Part shown: positions 3,853-32,464 of the stretch, one piece after another
Numbering within the stretch: position 1 is the first letter of the stretch
Layout: each line of letters opens with the position of its first letter
Assembly (NCBI GenBank): GCA_004376465.1
Contig: SOJU01000008.1
Span: 1-41,399, forward strand
Direction: 5' to 3'
Source: Anaerolineales bacterium
GTDB taxonomy: Bacteria; Chloroflexota; Anaerolineae; Anaerolineales; E44-bin32
Length of the DNA stretch: 41,399 bases
Made by a program: the position numbers and the translations under genes
Notes under the pieces: model-generated
What the model saw: the letters and a program-made list of their open reading frames with translations, nothing else
What the model was told of the DNA's origin: nothing
The model's database searches: none

Positions 3853-5226
3853 TTATCTGTCTCGCTTGCGGAAAGAGAGCCGTATTGGTGTACCAATGAA
3901 ACCATATTCGTTGCGGATCTGATTTTCAAGGTAGCGGACGTACGAGAAATGGACTAAATCCGGATTGTTGACATGGAAGAGGAAGGTAGGAGGGTTGGTC
4001 CTTACCTGAGTGACAAAGAGAATGTTCAGGCGCTTACCCTTGCGTGTGGGAGGGGCATGAGAGTTGAGAGCTTTTTGGAGCAAGCGATTAAGCTCTCCGG
4101 TCGGTATCCGAATAAGGCGTTCTTCCTGAACTCGCAGTGCTGCCGGTAGCACTTGGCTTACACGCTGACCTGTCTTGGCTGAAATGAAGAGTACGGGTAC
4201 GAAGTCCAAGAAGTTGAGTGTTTGGCGGACCTGCTCCGTATATGCGTTTATGGTGTGAGAGTCTTTTAGTACGAGGTCCCATTTGTTTACAAGTACGACG
4301 ACGCTTTTCATCTTATCGATGACCATCCCGGCTATGTGGGCATCCTGGGCGGTGCCACCTTCAACAGCGTCGATCAGCAGCAGAACAACATCCGCTCGTT
4401 CAATCGCCTTAAGCGCACGCAAAACAGAATATTTTTCAACGCCGGGCTCGATCCTTCCCCTGCGCCGGATCCCCGCGGTATCGATGAGCGTAATTGGCAA
4501 GCCCTGGTGAACGAGATGTGTATCAACCGCATCTCGGGTTGTGCCGGGTATGGGCGAGACGATGACGCGTTCTTCACCGAGGAGTCGATTCAGCAAACTC
4601 GATTTGCCGACATTGGGTCTGCCCACTATTGCGATTTTTAAAGATTCGTCGTCAGTCTCTTCGAGCGCACCTTCTGGTTTAATGGTTTCGATTAATTGGT
4701 CAAGCAGGTCTCCTGTGCTGGTTCCATGTAGGGCGGAGATGGGGATCGGATCTCCCATACCCAATGCGTAGAATTCGGTGGTTCCGGCACGACGCTCTGC
4801 GTTGTCGCAGCGATTGACAACAAGCAGAACGGGGGGGTGTAACTTGCCCGCAACCAGGCGCTGCTGTTTTCGCAGGATCTCAACAATCTCTTCGTCCGCG
4901 GGTGTGACCCCGCTCTCTACGTCCACCAAGAAGAGCACTGCATCGGCTTCGCGCGCAGCAATCTCCGCTTGATCGCGGATGCTGGAGATGTAATCCGCAG
5001 AATCGATGGAGAGCGGCTCTAACCGGCTCATGTTGGTTGGGTCGATCCCGCCAGTGTCGACGATGTCAAATATGATCCCGTTCCATTCCGCTTCAGCCAC
5101 AAGACGATCGCGAGTGGTGCCGGGTTTATCGTCGACGACAGCAAGACGTTCGCCGGCAAGACGGTTGAAGAGTGTTGACTTGCCAACATTTGGGCGTCCA
5201 ACCAATGCAACAATAGGGCGGGTCAT
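3853..5226 (-). CDS. der: Ribosome-assembly GTPase Der (EngA)
   Basis: Der is the tandem-GTPase factor required for 50S subunit maturation. The 457-aa protein has two G domains and a KH-like C-terminal domain. First domain: GRPNVGKST at 10-18, DTGG at 57-60, and NRCD at 138-141, a mild variant of the usual NKxD. Second domain: GRPNVGKSS at 202-210, DTAG at 249-252, and NKWD at 314-317. The KH-like domain covers about 350-457 and ends in the usual basic tail (RLSFRKRDR). The start is six bases after the cdaR stop, so the two genes are co-transcribed. Confidence 0.98.
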   Translation of the reverse strand: MTRPIVALVGRPNVGKSTLFNRLAGERLAVVDDKPGTTRDRLVAEAEWNGIIFDIVDTGGIDPTNMSRLEPLSIDSADYISSIRDQAEIAAREADAVLFLVDVESGVTPADEEIVEILRKQQRLVAGKLHPPVLLVVNRCDNAERRAGTTEFYALGMGDPIPISALHGTSTGDLLDQLIETIKPEGALEETDDESLKIAIVGRPNVGKSSLLNRLLGEERVIVSPIPGTTRDAVDTHLVHQGLPITLIDTAGIRRRGRIEPGVEKYSVLRALKAIERADVVLLLIDAVEGGTAQDAHIAGMVIDKMKSVVVLVNKWDLVLKDSHTINAYTEQVRQTLNFLDFVPVLFISAKTGQRVSQVLPAALRVQEERLIRIPTGELNRLLQKALNSHAPPTRKGKRLNILFVTQVRTNPPTFLFHVNNPDLVHFSYVRYLENQIRNEYGFIGTPIRLSFRKRDR

Positions 5227-18700: not shown

Positions 18701-20140
18701 CTACTCTACTTGCTTCGATAGATACTCGGAGATTGATTGCGCCGCATGGCGACCTGCGGCTGTAGCGGTGACGACAAGGTCAGGCCCAGTCACTGCATCT
18801 CCCCCTGCGAATACGCCTTCTCTTGAAGTCTCCCCAGTCTCCGCGTTGGCAACAATAAGACCCCAGTTGTGGATTTCAAGGTCGGGTGTGGTTTCGCCGA
18901 TGGAAGTATCTGGCCAGTAGCCCAGAGCGAGCACTACTGTGTCGGCGGGTACTGTGAAGTTAGAGCCTTCGATGGGAATGGGGCGTCGGCGTCCGCTATC
19001 GTCGGGTTCGCCGAGCTCGCATTGCAGGCATTCTACGGCTGAAACCTTCCCGTCCATGTCGGCGATGTAGCGAATGGGCTGGGCGAGGAAGCGGTAAATA
19101 GCGCCCTCTTCTTTGGCGAGTTCACGGTCTTTCTTGCCGCCGGGCATCTCAGCCTCGGTCCTTCGATAAAGGCAGGTTACCTCATCTGCACCTAGCCTCA
19201 ATGCGCTGCGTAGACAGTCAGAGGCGGTGTCGCCGCCGCCGATGACGGCAATTTTTTTGCCAATTTCAAGCTTGCCGCGCTTATCTTCCGGGAGTTGATC
19301 GGGGTGGACGTTCGCCCTGATCAGGAATTCCGTAGCTAAGTAGACTCCAGGGAGCTCAGCCCCGGGGACATCCATCGTGGCATCGATTCCAGTGCCCACG
19401 CTAATGTAAACGGCTTCGTAACCATCCTCGAAGAGGGAATCGATCGTTTGATCTTTTCCGATGCGGGTGTTCAGAATGAACTCCACACCGGCTTCTTTTA
19501 GATCATTAACAACCGCCTCGACGACGTCCTTAGCAAGCTTGAAATTCGGGATGCCATATAGGAGTAGTCCGCCGGGTGCAGGTGCAGCCTCGAAGATCGA
19601 AACCGAATATCCCTTGGGGATCAGCTGTTCAGCGCAAGCCAGACCCGATGGCCCAGACCCGACAATGGCAACCTTCTTGCCAATGGATTTTCCGACAGGG
19701 ATTTTCGTCGGCGCATTCTCCCTCTGGTAGCTGGTAACAAAGACTTCAAGGGCACCGGTAATAACCGGCTCACTGCGTTTATCGCGAACGCATGCTCCCT
19801 GGCATAAGGCTTCGTGCGGGCAAACGCGCCCACAGACTTCTGGCATCGTACTCGTCTGGCGGTATATTTCGGCCGCGCCGATGAAATCACCGTGTTCAAT
19901 GAGCCACATCGCCGAGGGGATGTCGTTGTGCAGTGGACACGCTTCAACGCATGGGGCAGGATCCGCACAATGAATGCAGCGTTCGGCTGCTTGCATCGCC
20001 TCTTCGGGCGTCATCGTAATAAAGGTAGGCTCAAAATCACGTGTCCGGACTTCGGGGGGGCGCGCCTTAACCTCCACGTAGGGCAGCTTCATTCGCGCTT
20101 TTCGATCAATTACTACATCTGAACCTTCAGGACCTGACAT
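18701..20140 (-). CDS. gltD: GltD-like NAD(P)H-dependent Fe-S/FAD oxidoreductase
   Basis: The 479-aa protein belongs to the glutamate synthase small-subunit family. An N-terminal Fe-S domain has CIHCADPAPCVEACPL and VCGRVCPHEALCQGAC. An FAD site (KVAIVGSGPSGLACAEQL) and an NAD(P)H site (KKIAVIGGGDTASDCLRSAL) follow, and the C-terminus ends with the family's VFAGGDAVTGPDLV block. In glutamate synthase this subunit feeds electrons to GltB, but no large subunit lies next to it, so it may serve GltB elsewhere or act like the NfnB or YgfK/PreT-type relatives. It is a single-gene unit with a clear terminator and a long regulatory region upstream. Confidence 0.85.
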   Translation of the reverse strand: MSGPEGSDVVIDRKARMKLPYVEVKARPPEVRTRDFEPTFITMTPEEAMQAAERCIHCADPAPCVEACPLHNDIPSAMWLIEHGDFIGAAEIYRQTSTMPEVCGRVCPHEALCQGACVRDKRSEPVITGALEVFVTSYQRENAPTKIPVGKSIGKKVAIVGSGPSGLACAEQLIPKGYSVSIFEAAPAPGGLLLYGIPNFKLAKDVVEAVVNDLKEAGVEFILNTRIGKDQTIDSLFEDGYEAVYISVGTGIDATMDVPGAELPGVYLATEFLIRANVHPDQLPEDKRGKLEIGKKIAVIGGGDTASDCLRSALRLGADEVTCLYRRTEAEMPGGKKDRELAKEEGAIYRFLAQPIRYIADMDGKVSAVECLQCELGEPDDSGRRRPIPIEGSNFTVPADTVVLALGYWPDTSIGETTPDLEIHNWGLIVANAETGETSREGVFAGGDAVTGPDLVVTATAAGRHAAQSISEYLSKQVE

Positions 20141-20186: not shown

Positions 20187-20203
20187 CAGACCAAAGTGGT
20201 CTG
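20187..20203. promoter_or_regulatory. Perfect inverted repeat, candidate operator for the GltD-like gene
   Basis: CAGACCA-AAG-TGGTCTG is a 7-3-7 perfect palindrome centred about 55 bp upstream of the gltD-like ATG, where its promoter should lie. A dimeric regulator is likely; I cannot name the family from the sequence. Confidence 0.45.
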
Positions 20204-20230: not shown

Positions 20231-20246
20231 TGTGACGGTTGTCACA
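20231..20246. promoter_or_regulatory. CRP/FNR-like palindrome TGTGA-N6-TCACA
   Basis: The site TGTGACGGTTGTCACA is a perfect match to the core CRP half-sites with 6-bp spacing. It lies about 90 bp upstream of the gltD-like start and 330 bp before the efflux operon, so it more probably serves the former. CRP/FNR-family regulators occur widely; whether this organism has one with this specificity is not shown here. Confidence 0.5.
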
Positions 20247-20409: not shown

Positions 20410-20453
20410 GTGTCAGAATATTGTCAGTATATCTTCATAACAGCTTCATATTT
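20410..20453 (+). promoter_or_regulatory. Four tandem 11-bp units, Pho-box-like response-regulator site
   Basis: Four 7-bp elements, GTGTCAG, TTGTCAG, TCTTCAT and GCTTCAT, follow each other head to tail, each separated by a 4-bp A/T-rich spacer (AATA, TATA, AACA, with ATTT after the last). This is the geometry of OmpR/PhoB-family DNA sites, and the first two elements closely resemble the PhoB element CTGTCAT. The array covers the -35 region of the promoter for the MacA-MacB operon. Confidence 0.6.
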
Positions 20454-20462
20454 AGATATTAT
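20434..20462 (+). promoter_or_regulatory. Promoter of the MacA-MacB type efflux operon
   Basis: TTCATA at 20434-20439 and TATTAT at 20457-20462 are spaced by 17 bp (4/6 and 5/6 matches). The -35 lies inside the tandem 11-bp array, as expected for a PhoB-type activated promoter in which the bound regulator replaces a strong -35. The leader to the ATG at 20561 would be about 90 nt. Confidence 0.45.
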
Positions 20463-20560
20463 CATTCTGCGCATAGTAGAATCCGGAAGTTGACGATGCC
20501 CGCATTGTTAATATTTGAATCACGCCAGATTTCCGATTGGTGTATGGAGGGAATGGTTAC

Positions 20561-21973
20561 ATGAAGCGTTGGGTAGTTATCTTAATTGTTGTCGGGGTAT
20601 TGGTCGCCGGGTACTTTGGCGTTCAAGCATACAGCCAATCTCAGGCTCGGCAGAGTATTGAGGATCTTCAAACGGAGATCATCGCCAAAGGTGATTTAAC
20701 GGCGACCGTCGGCGCGACGGGAAGCGTGCGCTCGAATCAAACTGCCCTGCTTAGTTTCCAAACGAGCGGAACAGTAGATTTCGTCCATCAGAGCCTGGGT
20801 GAGCACGTATCTGCGGGAGAAGTGTTGGCTACATTGAAGATGAGTTCACTTTCCTCACAGATCATCTTGGCCGAAGCTGAACTCGTTTCTGCAAAGCGTG
20901 CTCTGGATGATTTGCTATATTCCCGGCAGGCCTCCGCCGCGGCGCAGCTGGCGCTGGCGCAGGCGCACGAGACGCTTGAGGATGCAGAGTACGTAGAGTA
21001 CGTGCGACAGGAAGGATATCGAGCCAGTTCGGACACAATCAAAGCTGCAGAGGCGAATCTTTTGTTAGCGAACGAAGAGGTGGATGTTGCCCAGCAGCGT
21101 TACGACCATGCTAGTGGTGATACGGGGAGGGCACTAGCCCTTTCGAATCTTATCTCGGCGAAAAAGAAGCGGGATTCAATCCAAAGGAATTTAAATTGGT
21201 ACCAGGGTTCCCCAACCGAAGGTGAACAAGCATTGCTCGATGCCGATGTTGCCATCGCCGAGGCGCGTCTGGCTGATGCGCAGCGGGAGTGGGAGCGGGT
21301 GAAGGATGGTCCTAGTCCGAACGATATTCGCGCAGCAGAGGCGCGTGTAGCAGCGTCGGAAGCTACGCTGGATATGGCGCGCATCACTGCTCCCTTTGCA
21401 GGAAGCATCACCTCGATCGACGTGCTAGCAGGAGATCAAATATCTCCTGGTACACAAGGGTTCCGGATTGATGACCTCTCCCGCCTGTTGGTGGAAGTGG
21501 AAATATCTGAGGTGGATATCAACCGCGTCGCCTTAGGGCAGTCTGTAACCTTGAATTTCGACGCTGTGTTGGATCAAGTTTACAACGGAGTTGTCGTGGA
21601 AAAGGGCTTGATTGGCACCTCCCTGCAAGGTGTTGTAAGTTTCCCCGTGATTGTTGAAGTAATTGATGCCGATGAAGCCATCAAGCCTGGAATGACAGCG
21701 GCAGTGAATATCATCGTTGAGCAGATTGAAAACGTCGTGCTCGTTCCAAATCGTGCTGTGCGTGTTCGGGATGGAGAACGAGTAGTTTACCTGCTCGTGG
21801 ATAGCGTGATAACACCAACGCCGGTCGTGCTTGGCGCAACGTCCGACCTCTACAGCGAAATCGTAGAAGGGGATGTGAACGTGGGGGATGAGATCATTCT
21901 GAATCCACCATCGTTCATTTTTGAGGCGGGAGAACCGCCTGGATTCATGGGTGGAATGGGTGGAATGCGATGA
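20561..21973 (+). CDS. MacA-like membrane-fusion (periplasmic adaptor) subunit
   Basis: From MKRWVVILIVVGVL the product has 470 aa: one N-terminal membrane anchor (about 3-20), a lipoyl/biotinyl-like half-domain (TATVGATGSVRSNQTALLSF), a long helical hairpin at about 95-275 rich in Ala/Glu, the second lipoyl half (ITAPFAGSITSIDVLAGDQI), a beta-barrel domain, and a Gly/Met-rich tail. It is the adaptor of an ABC exporter, like MacA or Bacillus YknX. The ATG at 20561 is preceded by GGAGGG with 9-nt spacing, which decides it over the in-frame ATG at 20537. The stop overlaps the ATPase start by four bases. Confidence 0.92.
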   Translation: MKRWVVILIVVGVLVAGYFGVQAYSQSQARQSIEDLQTEIIAKGDLTATVGATGSVRSNQTALLSFQTSGTVDFVHQSLGEHVSAGEVLATLKMSSLSSQIILAEAELVSAKRALDDLLYSRQASAAAQLALAQAHETLEDAEYVEYVRQEGYRASSDTIKAAEANLLLANEEVDVAQQRYDHASGDTGRALALSNLISAKKKRDSIQRNLNWYQGSPTEGEQALLDADVAIAEARLADAQREWERVKDGPSPNDIRAAEARVAASEATLDMARITAPFAGSITSIDVLAGDQISPGTQGFRIDDLSRLLVEVEISEVDINRVALGQSVTLNFDAVLDQVYNGVVVEKGLIGTSLQGVVSFPVIVEVIDADEAIKPGMTAAVNIIVEQIENVVLVPNRAVRVRDGERVVYLLVDSVITPTPVVLGATSDLYSEIVEGDVNVGDEIILNPPSFIFEAGEPPGFMGGMGGMR

Positions 21974-22662
21974 GCGATTGGGTCATCGAGGCTGAGGGTA
22001 TAACAAAGGTTTACCGCATGGGCGACATCGAAGTTCATGCGCTGAGCGGGGTTGATTTGCGTATTGCTCGCGGCGAGATTGTCTCCATCATGGGACCCTC
22101 CGGCTCTGGCAAGACTACGTTGATGAACATTCTGGGCTGCTTGGACCGGCCCACTTCAGGAAGTTACAGTTTGGACGGCAGCCAGGTGGCTGAGTTGAGC
22201 GATGATCAGCTGGCGGCAATCCGCAATAAAAAGGTGGGTTTTGTGTTCCAGAGCTTCAACCTTCTCGGGCGCCAGACTGCTTTAACCAATGTCGAGCTGC
22301 CAATGCGGTACGCCGGAGTATCGAACGGCCGCCGTAAGCGTGCCATGGAGGCGCTTGAAGCAGTCGGGCTTGGGGATCGAGTCCAGCATCGCCCTAACGA
22401 GTTGTCCGGCGGGCAGCAGCAGCGCGTGGCTATCGCCCGCGCGCTGGTCAACAACCCGGCCATGATTATGGCTGATGAACCGACAGGCAACCTGGATTCA
22501 AAATCGGGCGTTGAGATTGTGCAGATTCTCCTTGACCTGAATAGGAATATAGGCACGACCCTCATATTCGTCACGCATGATCCGGAGATAGCTGCACATA
22601 CGAAGCGGGTGATCAGCCTGCTAGACGGATTAATCACGGAAGATCGGATTGTAGAGAAGTAA
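21970..22662 (+). CDS. ABC transporter ATPase, MacB/LolD type
   Basis: The 230-aa ATPase has Walker A GPSGSGKTT (about 41-49), Q-loop FVFQSFNLLGR, signature LSGGQQQRVAIARAL, Walker B MIMADEPTGNLD and H-loop FVTHDPE. The sequence LLGRQTALTNVELPM is typical of the MacB/LolD/FtsE group that drives MacB-type (type VII) mechanotransmission exporters. It overlaps the adaptor gene by ATGA and is followed, after a 51-bp gap with a hairpin, by the permease. Together they form a three-gene efflux system exporting a substrate that cannot be told from sequence, such as an antimicrobial peptide, macrolide or lipid. Confidence 0.95.
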   Translation: MSDWVIEAEGITKVYRMGDIEVHALSGVDLRIARGEIVSIMGPSGSGKTTLMNILGCLDRPTSGSYSLDGSQVAELSDDQLAAIRNKKVGFVFQSFNLLGRQTALTNVELPMRYAGVSNGRRKRAMEALEAVGLGDRVQHRPNELSGGQQQRVAIARALVNNPAMIMADEPTGNLDSKSGVEIVQILLDLNRNIGTTLIFVTHDPEIAAHTKRVISLLDGLITEDRIVEK

Positions 22663-22713: not shown

Positions 22714-23946
22714 ATGCAAATGGATTTGTGGAGAATCGTCTTAGAAGCGCTGGACAGTCTGGCTAGTAACAAAGTGCGCTCGGCGCTAACCGTATTGGGC
22801 ATTGTGATCGGCGTAGGTGCTGTAATTGCAATGCTTGCCATCGGCGCCGGAGCACAGAATACCATCACTGGATCGATCAGCGGAATTGGGACCAATCTGC
22901 TCTTCGTTATGCGTGGAGGCAGTGAAGAAGTCCGCAATCCCCAACCTCTCACACTCGGTGATGCTGAGGCGATGCGCGATCCCTTCGCCGCGCCATCGGT
23001 TATTGGTGTGGCTCCAGTTCTTCAAGGCAGCGCGGAGATCACGTTCACAGGAGAGGGTGATATTGTTGCCGCGGTTGGCGTGACCCCTGAACATGAGTCG
23101 GTTCGCAACGTCGAAATAGCCGAAGGTGAGTTTATCAACGAAATCCACCTATTGGGTCGTTCAGCAGTGGTGGTGTTAGGACCGGATATCGCCGAAACTC
23201 TATTTGGTAGGACGGAGAGCATCGTTGGCGAGTCGGTCCGCATCGAAGGGCAGCCTTTTAGAGTCATCGGTATTACAATCGCGAAAGGTGGGCAGGGGCC
23301 AACCAACGAAGACAATCAGATATATATCCCGATGTCCACGGCACAGACTCGACTTTTTCGGCGGTCGGGAAGCGATCATGTGGACATGATTTTAGTACAG
23401 GCCCTCAACGCGGATGCCGTCACCACTGCTGAAGAAGAGATATCCGCAATATTGCGCAATCGCCACCGCACGGCCATTGGTGAGGACGATTTCACCACTT
23501 TCAGCCAACAGAGCTTTCTGGAAGTGGCGGAAACCATCACAAACGTGTTCACGATCTTCCTCGGCGGCGTTGCCAGTATTTCGCTCCTCGTCGGTGGGAT
23601 TGGAATCATGAACATCATGCTGGTGTCGGTGACCGAACGCACACGCGAGATCGGCTTGCGGAAAGCTGTAGGCGCTCGAAAACGGGATATCATGCTCCAG
23701 TTCCTGGCTGAATCAGCTTTGTTGAGCCTCTTCGGAGGGCTCATCGGCATCGTCCTGGGATGGGCGCTCTCTATGCTCGTAGGCGCCATAGCTGCTGCCT
23801 CGAATGCGGATATTAACCCTGTCGTGGGTATTGACGCGGTCCTGCTGGCGACAATCTTCTCCGCAGCAGTGGGCCTCTTCTTCGGTTTGTACCCCGCCAA
23901 GCGCGCTGCCGATCTTGAACCGGTAGAGGCGTTGCGTTACGAGTAG
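22714..23946 (+). CDS. MacB-type ABC permease (FtsX/MacB domains)
   Basis: The 410-aa permease starts with a MacB-family N-terminus (ALDSLASNKVRSALTVLGIV, then GVGAVIAMLAIGAG), giving TM1 at about 20-42. A large extracytoplasmic MacB_PCD domain spans about 50-265 (VVVLGPDIAETLFG, ESVRIEGQPFRVIGI). The FtsX core follows with three membrane segments: ITNVFTIFLGGVASISLLVG, LLSLFGGLIGIVLGWALSML and LLATIFSAAVGLFFGLYPA. The diagnostic SVTERTREIGLRKAVGARK lies between them, and the protein ends in PAKRAADLEPVEALRYE. It is the last gene of the efflux operon and is followed by a hairpin terminator. A second in-frame ATG two codons later is a possible start. Confidence 0.95.
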   Translation: MQMDLWRIVLEALDSLASNKVRSALTVLGIVIGVGAVIAMLAIGAGAQNTITGSISGIGTNLLFVMRGGSEEVRNPQPLTLGDAEAMRDPFAAPSVIGVAPVLQGSAEITFTGEGDIVAAVGVTPEHESVRNVEIAEGEFINEIHLLGRSAVVVLGPDIAETLFGRTESIVGESVRIEGQPFRVIGITIAKGGQGPTNEDNQIYIPMSTAQTRLFRRSGSDHVDMILVQALNADAVTTAEEEISAILRNRHRTAIGEDDFTTFSQQSFLEVAETITNVFTIFLGGVASISLLVGGIGIMNIMLVSVTERTREIGLRKAVGARKRDIMLQFLAESALLSLFGGLIGIVLGWALSMLVGAIAAASNADINPVVGIDAVLLATIFSAAVGLFFGLYPAKRAADLEPVEALRYE

Positions 23947-28789: not shown

Positions 28790-29389
28790 CTACTCTGCAG
28801 ATTCGCCACACCACTGGCAACACTCATTTCCATGAGGGATTAAAGCGTCGCACTTCTTGCAGCGAAGGAGTTCACCTGGCGGCGCTAAGCCGCCTCCCAT
28901 ATCCGCGGCCATGCGGATAACGTCGTATGGGCTCATCGCCGCGGGAGTGCCGCCTCGACCAACAAGAGCACCCCCGAGATGCATACCTTTTTCGTCTTCA
29001 TGGATGACGTATCCTTGGTCGCGTAGGGCGTTAGCGAGGTCGTCGCTCAGCTTAGGCCCCAGACTCGGTCCGGTGGGAAGTTCATTACCTGAAAGGAGGC
29101 GCCGGGCTTCCTCGGGAAGCTCGTCCATCATCCAACCTGGAAGAGGGTCATCTTTCGTTCTTTGCTCCTCTGCGAGGATTTTTCTAAATCGGCTGGAGGA
29201 GTCATCTTTCGAAGCTGGAGAGGGATGCAGGTTAGCCCCAAAGGATTTAAGCCCGGGCTCACGCTCTTTTGAACACTGCAGGCAGACAGGGACGTCATGT
29301 GAGCCGTTCAGCGCGGTTAACAGCTGCATAGGCTCGCCGCATACTGGGCAAGGAGCGGTTTCGCCAGGGGGATAGTGTGGTGAGGACAT
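28790..29389 (-). CDS. Small protein with zinc ribbons at both ends
   Basis: I do not recognise this 199-aa protein as a named family. It has an N-terminal zinc ribbon (Cys14, Cys17, Cys36, Cys39; CPVCGEPMQL and CLQCSK) and a C-terminal one (Cys177, Cys180, Cys190/191, Cys194; CKKCDAL and CQWCGE). The middle, about 45-165, is charged and has no membrane segment; it contains LPEEARRLLSGNELPTGPSL and a Gly-rich HLGGALVGRGGTPAAM. It starts 25 bp after the stop of the larger zinc-ribbon gene, so both are co-transcribed and may act together. Nucleic-acid or protein binding is possible but not shown. Confidence 0.8.
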   Translation of the reverse strand: MSSPHYPPGETAPCPVCGEPMQLLTALNGSHDVPVCLQCSKEREPGLKSFGANLHPSPASKDDSSSRFRKILAEEQRTKDDPLPGWMMDELPEEARRLLSGNELPTGPSLGPKLSDDLANALRDQGYVIHEDEKGMHLGGALVGRGGTPAAMSPYDVIRMAADMGGGLAPPGELLRCKKCDALIPHGNECCQWCGESAE

Positions 29390-29414: not shown

Positions 29415-31211
29415 TCAGCCGAGGTCTCTGGGTGGAGCTGTCCGGTCCTTGATCTTGGAGAGCTTGCCGAGCGTGTGAGCCTCATTCGCTTCAAAGAATC
29501 GTTCGGCATATTCCGGGTTGCGCCACTCGAAGGCTGTCTCGAGCCCCTGTGTTTCCTTGGGCACAAGTAGTGTGGAGCGTACGTACGATGCGCTGGCCGG
29601 TGGTGGGTGTTTTCCAACACGACCCAGCAGGAAAAGGGCTGGTAAGGTGTAACCAACGATGAATAGAATGGCAAGGATGAGAATATCAAAGAACTGTAAT
29701 TCGGCTGGCTTGATGATTCCGAGTGCGAGTGCGCCGACGACCAGCAGCATCCCGCCGATTGCAGATAGCAGATGGGCCTGTAGTCTTGCCTCTTTAGCCT
29801 CATCACTGAGTTGGCTAGCGCGCTTACGGCATTCGGCGCAAAGCGGGATTTTGAAGTTCGTAGTTTTTCGGTGAGTAATGTTCTGGCCATCGGGCAGTGA
29901 TCCCACAACGGTGAGGTGACCTTTGACCGGGGTCCGACCGCAGTGGGCGCAATCGCCGCCCGGGAAGACAGCTTTCTCGCCACGGAGTACAACCCGATAA
30001 CGATGACCCCGCGGCGGATCTGTATCCAGGAGAGCAACTTCCTCTTCTATGACCGCTGCGGCAATAGCCACATCAATCTCTTGAGAAGGTGCTTCCGGCT
30101 CGCTCGGCATTTTCTCGATCGGTTCCAGGTCCGTTGGCGGTATCTGGGAAAGCGACTCGATTCTTGATGCGAAGGATTCCGGTTCCACAGCGCTCTCGAC
30201 TGCCTCTGCATCAGCAAGCGGTGGGAAGATTGGCTGAGATTCGAGTGGAACCTCGGAGATGTGCAGATCTGGGATGGGCTCGGATTCCAGCGGAACGCCG
30301 GCGGATTGGCGAAGATTCGAGAGAAAATCTTGTTCAGGCTCCTCGGGTGCGGGCAGGTTGTCGAGGGGTGTCTCAATTTCCTGGGCGAACCCCTCGAGCG
30401 AGGGCTCGACGCTATCGTCTGCGGGTTGGGCCCAGTCCGGGAGTGGGATTTCATCCGCTTCAGGGACTTCTTGTTTGATGGGTTGGTCCCAGGCATCGCC
30501 GGGTTCACTGAAGCTTTCTTCGCTTTGAGCATCTGCGATCTCTGGCAGCGCCTGATCATCCGCGTGTTCAAGTCCGATTTCGCCCAAGATTCCCGCGCTG
30601 ATGGGCAAATCTCCTTCTTCTGGCAGGGATGGCTCCAAATCGGCTTCTGCATCTGGGGTGATCGACCGGAAATAAGAGGCGAGATCATCCGTTTCTTCGG
30701 AGATGGGATCCTCTGAATCCCCCTCAAAATCGCTTACGCCGGGAATCGCAGCTGCTTCTAAACCAAGATCTAGCTCTCCGAGTCGTTCTTCGAGGAGGTC
30801 AACAGATTCGGGTTCTTCCGGAAGTTCGGCCGCTGTCTCCGAAATGGGCGCTTCAGGGCTTTCGATTTCGGTTTCGAGCGGGGTGATTTCTTCTAGTTGA
30901 GGTTCAGCGTAGGTTGGGGTTTCCTGTTCAGGCGCGATCCGCTCCTCGCGTGCTCTGTTATCGACCGCCTCCAGCCAAACCCACTGTTTGAGTGCGAACC
31001 GCTCCGTCAATGGGTAGCCTTCGCTGATTTGACCATAAAAGACACGTTCTCCACCGTCTTCGGAGAGAAATGCGGATTTACAACTCTCACAACCGACGTA
31101 ATCGGGCAGGTTCTCCATGTGAACGAGATGCAGCGCATCTGCGCCGCATATCGCGCAAAGGAGGCCATCGATAAGACCATCATCGAGCGTGGATTTTGGA
31201 GTCGAAGCCAT
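29415..31211 (-). CDS. Zinc-ribbon membrane protein with long acidic linker
   Basis: The 598-aa protein has no recognised full-length family. Its order is: a zinc ribbon (Cys19, Cys22, Cys41, Cys44), a short conserved-looking stretch (GYPLTERFALKQWVWLEAVDN), then about 300 residues of Glu/Pro/Ser-rich, probably disordered linker (about 88-390). A beta-rich part follows with a second zinc site (Cys421, Cys424, Cys458, Cys461), then two membrane segments at about 479-500 and 507-530 and a C-terminal tail. The acidic linker and zinc sites are probably cytoplasmic. Together with the 199-aa zinc-ribbon gene it forms a two-gene unit. Any role as a membrane-tethered adaptor is inference. Confidence 0.8.
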   Translation of the reverse strand: MASTPKSTLDDGLIDGLLCAICGADALHLVHMENLPDYVGCESCKSAFLSEDGGERVFYGQISEGYPLTERFALKQWVWLEAVDNRAREERIAPEQETPTYAEPQLEEITPLETEIESPEAPISETAAELPEEPESVDLLEERLGELDLGLEAAAIPGVSDFEGDSEDPISEETDDLASYFRSITPDAEADLEPSLPEEGDLPISAGILGEIGLEHADDQALPEIADAQSEESFSEPGDAWDQPIKQEVPEADEIPLPDWAQPADDSVEPSLEGFAQEIETPLDNLPAPEEPEQDFLSNLRQSAGVPLESEPIPDLHISEVPLESQPIFPPLADAEAVESAVEPESFASRIESLSQIPPTDLEPIEKMPSEPEAPSQEIDVAIAAAVIEEEVALLDTDPPRGHRYRVVLRGEKAVFPGGDCAHCGRTPVKGHLTVVGSLPDGQNITHRKTTNFKIPLCAECRKRASQLSDEAKEARLQAHLLSAIGGMLLVVGALALGIIKPAELQFFDILILAILFIVGYTLPALFLLGRVGKHPPPASASYVRSTLLVPKETQGLETAFEWRNPEYAERFFEANEAHTLGKLSKIKDRTAPPRDLG

Positions 31212-31674: not shown

Positions 31675-31777
31675 CCAAACACAAAATTGGTTACAATATT
31701 CCATGTCCTCAACGGGGTGATTTTACTGCTGCTGATGTTTGCCATATGATGATGGTTCTCGCCATGCATGGAGCTTA

Positions 31778-32464
31778 ATGATGACAAGCACAAATGAACA
31801 TACAGACGTATCGGGAGAGGTAGAAGCACAATTCCGAGCGATCCGCAAAACGATCGGCGAGCAGTGGAGCGAGATCCTGTCGGCCACTTTGCTTGCCGTG
31901 GTGGCCATCGGCACAGCCTGGAGCGGTTATCAATCCGCGCAGTGGGGGGGCATCCAGTCGATTAAGTTCAGCAGGGCTTCCTCCCTGCGGGTCGAATCGA
32001 CGCGCGCTTCCACGCTTGGGGGTCAGTTGGTCACGATTGACGTGATCCTCTTCGAGGGTTGGGTGGATGCATACGTCGCGAAGAATGAGGATTTGATGCA
32101 CTTCTATGAAGGTCGTTTCCGAGACGAGTTCAACCCAGCCTTCGAGGCCTGGGTTGCAACCGATCCGGTCAACAACCCGGATGCACCCTCTCAACCCTTC
32201 CTCATGGAGGAGTATCAGGTCGCCTCGATGCAGGAGGCGGAACAATTGGAAGAAGAGGCGAGCGCTTTGTTCGACGAGGGAGAGCAGGCGAACCAGACGA
32301 GCGATGATTATGCCTTCAGCACGGTGCTGCTGGCGACCGTGCTCTTCTTCGCCGGCATCGCCACTCGCTTCGAATGGCAGCCAATCCGCTGGGTGCTGCT
32401 CGCCATCGGCATCGGATTGCTGATTTTTGGGGTGTACAATTTACTGTCGCTGCCGATTGCATGA
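31778..32464 (+). CDS. Small membrane protein, DUF4337-like
   Basis: From MMTSTNEHTDVSGEV the product has 228 aa. It has an amphipathic N-terminus with FRAIRKTIGEQWSEILSATL, a membrane segment (about 31-48, LLAVVAIGTAWSGYQSAQWGG), a soluble helical middle of about 120 residues rich in Glu, and two closing membrane segments (AFSTVLLATVLFFAGIATRF and a second at VLLAIGIGLLIFGVYNLL). This layout resembles DUF4337-type membrane proteins of unknown function. GGAG stands five bases before ATG 31778; the in-frame ATG at 31739 lacks such a site. Function unknown. Confidence 0.75.
   Translation: MMTSTNEHTDVSGEVEAQFRAIRKTIGEQWSEILSATLLAVVAIGTAWSGYQSAQWGGIQSIKFSRASSLRVESTRASTLGGQLVTIDVILFEGWVDAYVAKNEDLMHFYEGRFRDEFNPAFEAWVATDPVNNPDAPSQPFLMEEYQVASMQEAEQLEEEASALFDEGEQANQTSDDYAFSTVLLATVLFFAGIATRFEWQPIRWVLLAIGIGLLIFGVYNLLSLPIA

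Follow-up and report, generated by a model that had tools for sequence, protein, structure and literature searches.

What would control a MacAB-type exporter operon that is preceded by four tandem 11-bp repeats in a Chloroflexota bacterium? The window (the whole stretch of 41,399 nt analyzed here) had been given a preliminary description that likened the repeats to a Pho box and tied the exporter either to phosphate starvation or to another envelope two-component system. We found by computation that the array is conserved in close relatives, that its layout recurs before other operons, and that this layout is linked to BaeR-like regulators and macAB operons. From its sequence, the array is probably a class II activation site of a BaeR-like regulator for a MacAB-type exporter in this uncultured Anaerolineales bacterium.

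Four direct repeats in front of an exporter operon

The four 7-mers, at positions 20410, 20421, 20432, and 20443, and their spacers read GTGTCAG-AATA-TTGTCAG-TATA-TCTTCAT-AACA-GCTTCAT (20410-20449), followed by ATTT as the 4 nt behind unit 4 (Table 1). The 7 + 4 units and the direct-repeat geometry of the OmpR/PhoB family proposed earlier were thus borne out on direct reading, and the array contains the head-to-tail half-sites at an 11-bp period (at least two) that define a class II direct-repeat operator. Specifically, four TCA cores at an 11-bp period occurred once in the window (mean of 0.02 in 100 dinucleotide shuffles, 2 of which reached 1) and once in the 2.9-Mb genome (302 contigs, 81% complete), in which a reversed control pattern had no match. 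Column agreement over the 4 × 7 positions was 23 of 28, which 5 of 2,000 shuffles of the 420-bp intergenic region reached, and 11 was the best of the periods from 7 to 15 in that region (agreement of ≤21 for the others).

Of the −35/−10 pair described previously, the −10 part stood, being a good and conserved hexamer that begins 10 nt past unit 4 in all five species compared (TATCAT or TATTAT), but the −35 part did not: the repeats cover that position and no good hexamer is found there, which is how an activated promoter is expected to look. Domain matches confirmed the MacA-MacB efflux operon downstream. As in MacAB and the YknXYZ-like exporters of monoderms, a membrane fusion protein (MFP), an ATPase, and a MacB_PCD/FtsX permease are encoded in one operon; here, however, ATPase and permease occupy separate genes in place of a fused MacB, and the scores fall below the MacA and MacB equivalog cut-offs. 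No regulator gene lies beside macA within the window, where the search for one turned up only a GAF/HATPase_c protein (1291-2925).

Table 1. Coordinates of the macA promoter, the adjacent genes, and two promoters on other contigs
Feature	Position	Strand	Remark
Unit 1, GTGTCAG	20410-20416	+	Distal; GCGTCAG in four congeners; poor fit to BaeR-like matrix
Unit 2, TTGTCAG	20421-20427	+	Distal; poor fit to BaeR-like matrix
Unit 3, TCTTCAT	20432-20438	+	With the next AA, gives TCTNCANAA, the published BaeR consensus
Unit 4, GCTTCAT	20443-20449	+	Invariant in five species
−10 hexamer, TATCAT	20460-20465	+	Exactly 10 nt past unit 4; TATCAT or TATTAT in congeners
Probable RBS, GGAGGGA	20546-20552	+	8 nt ahead of the macA ATG
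MacA-like periplasmic adaptor	20561-21973	+	HlyD_D23, HlyD_3; RND_mfp
MacB/LolD-type ABC ATPase	21970-22662	+	
MacB-type permease	22714-23946	+	MacB_PCD and FtsX
GltD-like Fe-S oxidoreductase	18701-20140	-	Divergent; neighbor retained in many relatives of the order
Promoter of DUF2202 lipoprotein gene, this genome	L050 3487-3542		Unit 3 is ACGGCAC; Pfam match
pstS upstream region, CTGTTAC CTGT TTGTTAC CGCT CTGCAAC .. TTGTTAC	L070 about 4150-4240	-	

Two further features of the window were recorded. On the gltD side of the intergenic region, the perfect palindromes CAGACCAAAGTGGTCTG and TGTGACGGTTGTCACA (20187-20203 and 20231-20246) form a block that is nearly invariant within the genus and recognizable in other genera (L025, L027, and L035); TGTGACGGTTGTCACA fits TGTGA-N6-TCACA, which we take to be a CRP/FNR-type site. 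In addition, three ORFs of 199 to 598 aa (29415-31211, 28790-29389, and 31739-32464), adjoining an ornithine carbamoyltransferase gene, had no Pfam match.

Conservation of the array before macA

We compared the regions upstream of macA using orthologues from 60 relatives; the related records are Anaerolineales/Anaerolineae MAGs, in keeping with the Chloroflexota host proposed earlier, and all of the compared genomes are fragmented. The array was present at the same position in the congeners G002 to G005 (~90-92% identical in amino acids across the available part), a conservation that partly reflects shared descent within the genus. All four TCA cores are kept in G002, G003, and G004 and three in G005, where unit 2 contains TGTAAG. 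In the five-species comparison, invariant positions made up 15 of the 16 core columns but 11 of the 22 spacer columns (p = 0.004). Both checks suggested in the preliminary description left the array unrefuted, with the repeats conserved in the intergenic region of close relatives and similar sites present elsewhere in the genome. The array was absent before macA in G001 (same genus, 60% identity) and in most of the other genera whose macA promoters were compared, a comparison in which the control windows contain overlapping ORFs and training promoters. Both G009 and G013 have a macA without the array, though an RR054 orthologue (see below) is present in each. The G002 assembly holds the macA promoter in two variants, on contigs C124 (L087) and C174 (L019), which probably represent a mixture of strains in the MAG.

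The same layout precedes other operons

Four 11-bp units, 10 nt, and a −10 element are also conserved before three further operons: that of the DUF2202 gene and the two that encode the BaeR-like two-component systems of this genome. The RR054 operon (contig C131; 155-aa membrane protein, regulator, and kinase), reached via a one-mismatch search, has the promoter TCTCCCC-GAGT-TCTCCAT-TCTC-CGTTCAT-GCTC-AGTTCAC, 10 nt, CAGAAT, a block kept in this genome, G002, G003, and G005 while the DNA further upstream diverges. The RR055 operon (contig C35; 175-aa protein, regulator, and kinase) has CCTTCAT-ACAT-TCCCGAT-ACTC-TCTTCAT-CGCT-TCTTCAT, 10 nt, TATCCT, likewise conserved in G002, G003, and G005. The layout is retained by RR054 relatives in G013, G029, and G027 and by an RR055-like regulator in G006. 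A genus-wide three-unit search yielded the DUF2202 promoter (TATTCAT-CAGA-TCTTCAT-ATAA-ACGTCAC-CGCA-TATTCGA, 10 nt, TATAAA); we take DUF2202 to be ferritin-like, and the start of the gene in this genome shows an apparent frameshift relative to the congeners. When the −10 score was averaged for 11 such promoters at offsets 0 to 19, only offset 10 stood out, with a mean of 4.8; all remaining offsets gave negative means (next best, −0.5). At macA, DUF2202, RR054, and RR055 alike, the operator takes the place of the −35 at this fixed step.

Arrays of the macA type also precede macAB operons that have their own regulator and kinase in G003, G005, G008, G013, G029, and G057. The paralogous operons of G003, G005, G008, G009, and G013 encode MacA, ATPase, permease, a lipoprotein (in most), regulator, and kinase, and those of G029 also encode their own regulator. 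Examples are the G013 promoter (TCCACAC-AATT-CCTTCAC-AACA-TCCTCAT-CACT-CTTTAAC, 10 nt, TATACT) and that of G057 (TCTCCAG-AAAA-TCTCCAG, 10 nt, TAAAAT), in which macAB continues into a regulator and a kinase with 48% and 40% identity to RR054 and HK054. Array matches before the G009 paralogue operon and the first G029 operon were weak.

Beyond macA and DUF2202, matches of the strict three-unit scan of the genus seemed unrelated, several of them within coding sequence. With two units, matches were roughly twice as numerous as in the control, and most fell within or close to coding regions. In G005, the DNA ahead of a thiolase-like gene contains a possible further array (L270 1141-1196, minus strand), TCTCCAT-ATTC-CCGTCAT-CAAC-CCGACAC-TACT-TCGTCAT. 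Since TCA-rich 11-bp runs also arose by chance in the controls of the one-mismatch search, the macA array could in principle be a repeat without function; yet its cores are conserved while its spacers diverge in five species, it is placed at a −10, and it recurs before other operons, and we regard coincidence as extremely unlikely.

We built a unit matrix from the RR054 and RR055 promoters alone (consensus TCTTCAT), holding out macA and DUF2202, and joined it to a generic matrix for the −10 element, placed at offset 10; these matrices are small. The scan covered 277 kb, or ~10% of the genome, on contigs picked for regulators and pst/phoU genes, and the DUF2202 contig had entered it for its phoU before the DUF2202 site was known. 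With training sites and register shifts set aside, macA (16.6) and DUF2202 (14.3) were the top two new sites, and the next scored 9.05. The combined macA score was reached by 2 of 3,000 shuffles of the intergenic region. On units alone, macA scored 10.2 (16 of 3,000 shuffles) and a few chance sites ranked above it, because units 1 and 2 fit the matrix poorly; its rank improves once the correctly spaced −10 is counted.

A BaeR-like clade of regulators

In a tree of 24 regulators, RR054, RR055, the macAB-linked regulators (except that of G057), and E. coli BaeR, a long branch, formed one clade (96/92), apart from the ten remaining OmpR-type regulators of this genome that the tree included. BaeR (4b09) was the best solved match for both RR054 and RR055. 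Against NF007982, the NCBIfam BaeR equivalog, RR054 and RR055 scored 253.5 and 250.5 bits, with BaeR ranking first but below the cut-off of 380, and we therefore call them BaeR-like and not BaeR. The NCBIfam first match of the macAB-linked regulators is MtrA. The RR054 and RR055 genes both lie away from macA in this genome, and each adjoins one for a membrane histidine kinase.

The assembly, at 81% completeness, has 15 OmpR-type wHTH matches. Another OmpR-family regulator, MtrA-like or missing from the assembly, might occupy the whole array, and this genome yielded no counterpart of a class 3 BaeR-like regulator present in G002, G003, and G005. The array type nevertheless tracks the BaeR-like clade, and such an occupant appears very improbable.

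BaeR consensus sequences have been reported as TTTTTCTCCATDATTGGC and TCTNCANAA, with the conserved element CTNCA (PMC3799227). The BaeR site at Salmonella sodA includes GCTTCAT (PMC3799227) and that at Erwinia acrD is TTCTTCACGATTACTGGC (PMC3915751), and the boxes of E. coli, Salmonella, and Erwinia (mdtA, acrD, and sodA) share the CTNCA core and TCTNCANAA (PMC3799227, PMC3915751). At macA, unit 3 in the form TCTTCATAA agrees with CTNCA and TCTNCANAA, and unit 4 is GCTTCAT. Unit 3 with its flank is TCTTCACAA in three congeners, while CCTTCATAG in G005 fits TCTNCANAA incompletely; the 18-mer TTTTTCTCCATDATTGGC is matched at ~11 of 18 positions around unit 3 (hand count). The systems are also alike in having a BaeR-clade regulator with a neighboring kinase and exporters among the targets (PMC3799227, PMC3915751). 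They differ in that published BaeR boxes are single 9- to 18-mers, whereas here four tandem 11-bp units precede the −10 by a constant 10 nt, and in that BaeR exporter targets are of the RND type, whereas this exporter is of the ABC/MacB type. A literature search on MacAB and two-component systems in Chloroflexi and on PhoB promoter geometry returned nothing useful.

Phosphate starvation as an unlikely signal

If the array were a true Pho box, phosphorylated PhoB would occupy the four units and tie the exporter to phosphate starvation. The Pho box consists of CTGTCAT repeats with 4-nt A/T-rich spacers (PMC3131613), and the 7 + 4 geometry, the overlap with the −35, and the TGTCA of units 1 and 2 agree with it (PMC3131613); units 1 to 4 match CTGTCAT at 5, 5, 4, and 4 of 7 positions (hand count). 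The array scored +9.2 with an approximate matrix of E. coli Pho units, a value that fell to +3.2 for the congener consensus. In contrast to the TCTTCAT and GTGTCAG of the macA units, the pstS promoter of the same genome (Table 1) bears YTGTTAC repeats, as does the G013 pst promoter (TTGTTAC CCTT TTGTTAC GGCC CTATCAC), and the macA array scored −11.5 bits with a matrix built from these pst promoters of the lineage versus +10.1 with the BaeR-like matrix. The pst-linked regulator falls outside the clade whose promoters bear macA-type arrays; that of G007, encoded beside pstS and close to C201a here, has the recognition helix DMLRQ-VHRLR and not ERxxDxHIKNLR. In the 277-kb scan, pstS had no macA-type array, and on the phoU contig such an array occurred solely at the DUF2202 gene. 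Having read the pstS and phoU loci and compared pst promoters, we found membership in a Pho regulon unsupported and consider it quite unlikely; the fallback offered in the preliminary description, another envelope two-component system, is the part that gained support.

Separately, the YTGTTAC repeats with an 11-bp period before pstS (L070; L095) are a lineage-specific candidate Pho box for Anaerolineales. The pstSCAB contig C17 (L070) opens with an apparent kinase C-terminus.

One regulator or two

The BaeR-like matrix splits the array cleanly (+10.4 and +7.5 for the proximal units; −5.3 and −2.4 for units 1 and 2), and the poor fit of the distal pair makes a second input conceivable: GTGTCAG and TTGTCAG may represent either poor half-sites for the protein that would occupy units 3 and 4 or a binding site for another regulator. 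A BaeR-like regulator could bind TCTTCAT/GCTTCAT and a different OmpR-family regulator the distal pair, with RR058 (C41) as a candidate. The RR058 and Pho matrices favor the distal pair, which is conserved like the proximal pair (except for unit 2 of G005), and the RR058 box itself is identical in five species. However, degenerate outer units (TCCCGAT and TATTCGA) are frequent in BaeR-like promoters, a fixed 11-bp register over four units suits one protein, and the step from the RR058 box to its −10 is 11 nt instead of 10. Overall, a division between two proteins seems unlikely to us, and a promoter that integrates a proximal BaeR-like dimer with a second, distal OmpR-family regulator, exporter output then needing two envelope signals, is best treated as a minor possibility. 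As the sole macA regulator, RR058 (YycF/PhoB-like) was rejected on the differing box and its 11-nt distance.

The RR058 promoter (L058 1255-1320, minus strand; L123-L126) reads CTGCCGA-AAAG-CTGTCAC-AAAA-TAGTCAC, 11 nt, TATAAT and is nearly identical in five species. It is Pho-box-like in sequence, and the OmpR-type regulator gene adjoins one for an FTR1-like permease.

A model for control of the exporter

In the model that we favor, control by a BaeR-like regulator, the four head-to-tail half-sites would stand in for the −35 and end 10 nt ahead of the −10. A response regulator of the OmpR family, from the BaeR-like clade, would occupy them as phosphorylated dimers and recruit RNA polymerase, leading to transcription of the exporter operon. 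Candidates in this organism are RR054, RR055, or the class 3 regulator missing from the assembly. We infer binding at the array, activation, and envelope stress as the signal. Judging by their macA-type promoters, RR054 and RR055 are apparently autoregulated.

An attractive but unsupported phosphate story is thus replaced by a BaeR-like reading. The BaeR-like systems of the order appear to use a strict promoter layout both for their own regulation and for driving MacAB-type exporters. If this is true, the TCTNCA half-site of E. coli BaeR would also serve relatives that are very distant in evolution, and the layout would provide this order of uncultured Chloroflexota with a regulatory code that can be tested, with targets that may be predicted from sequence.
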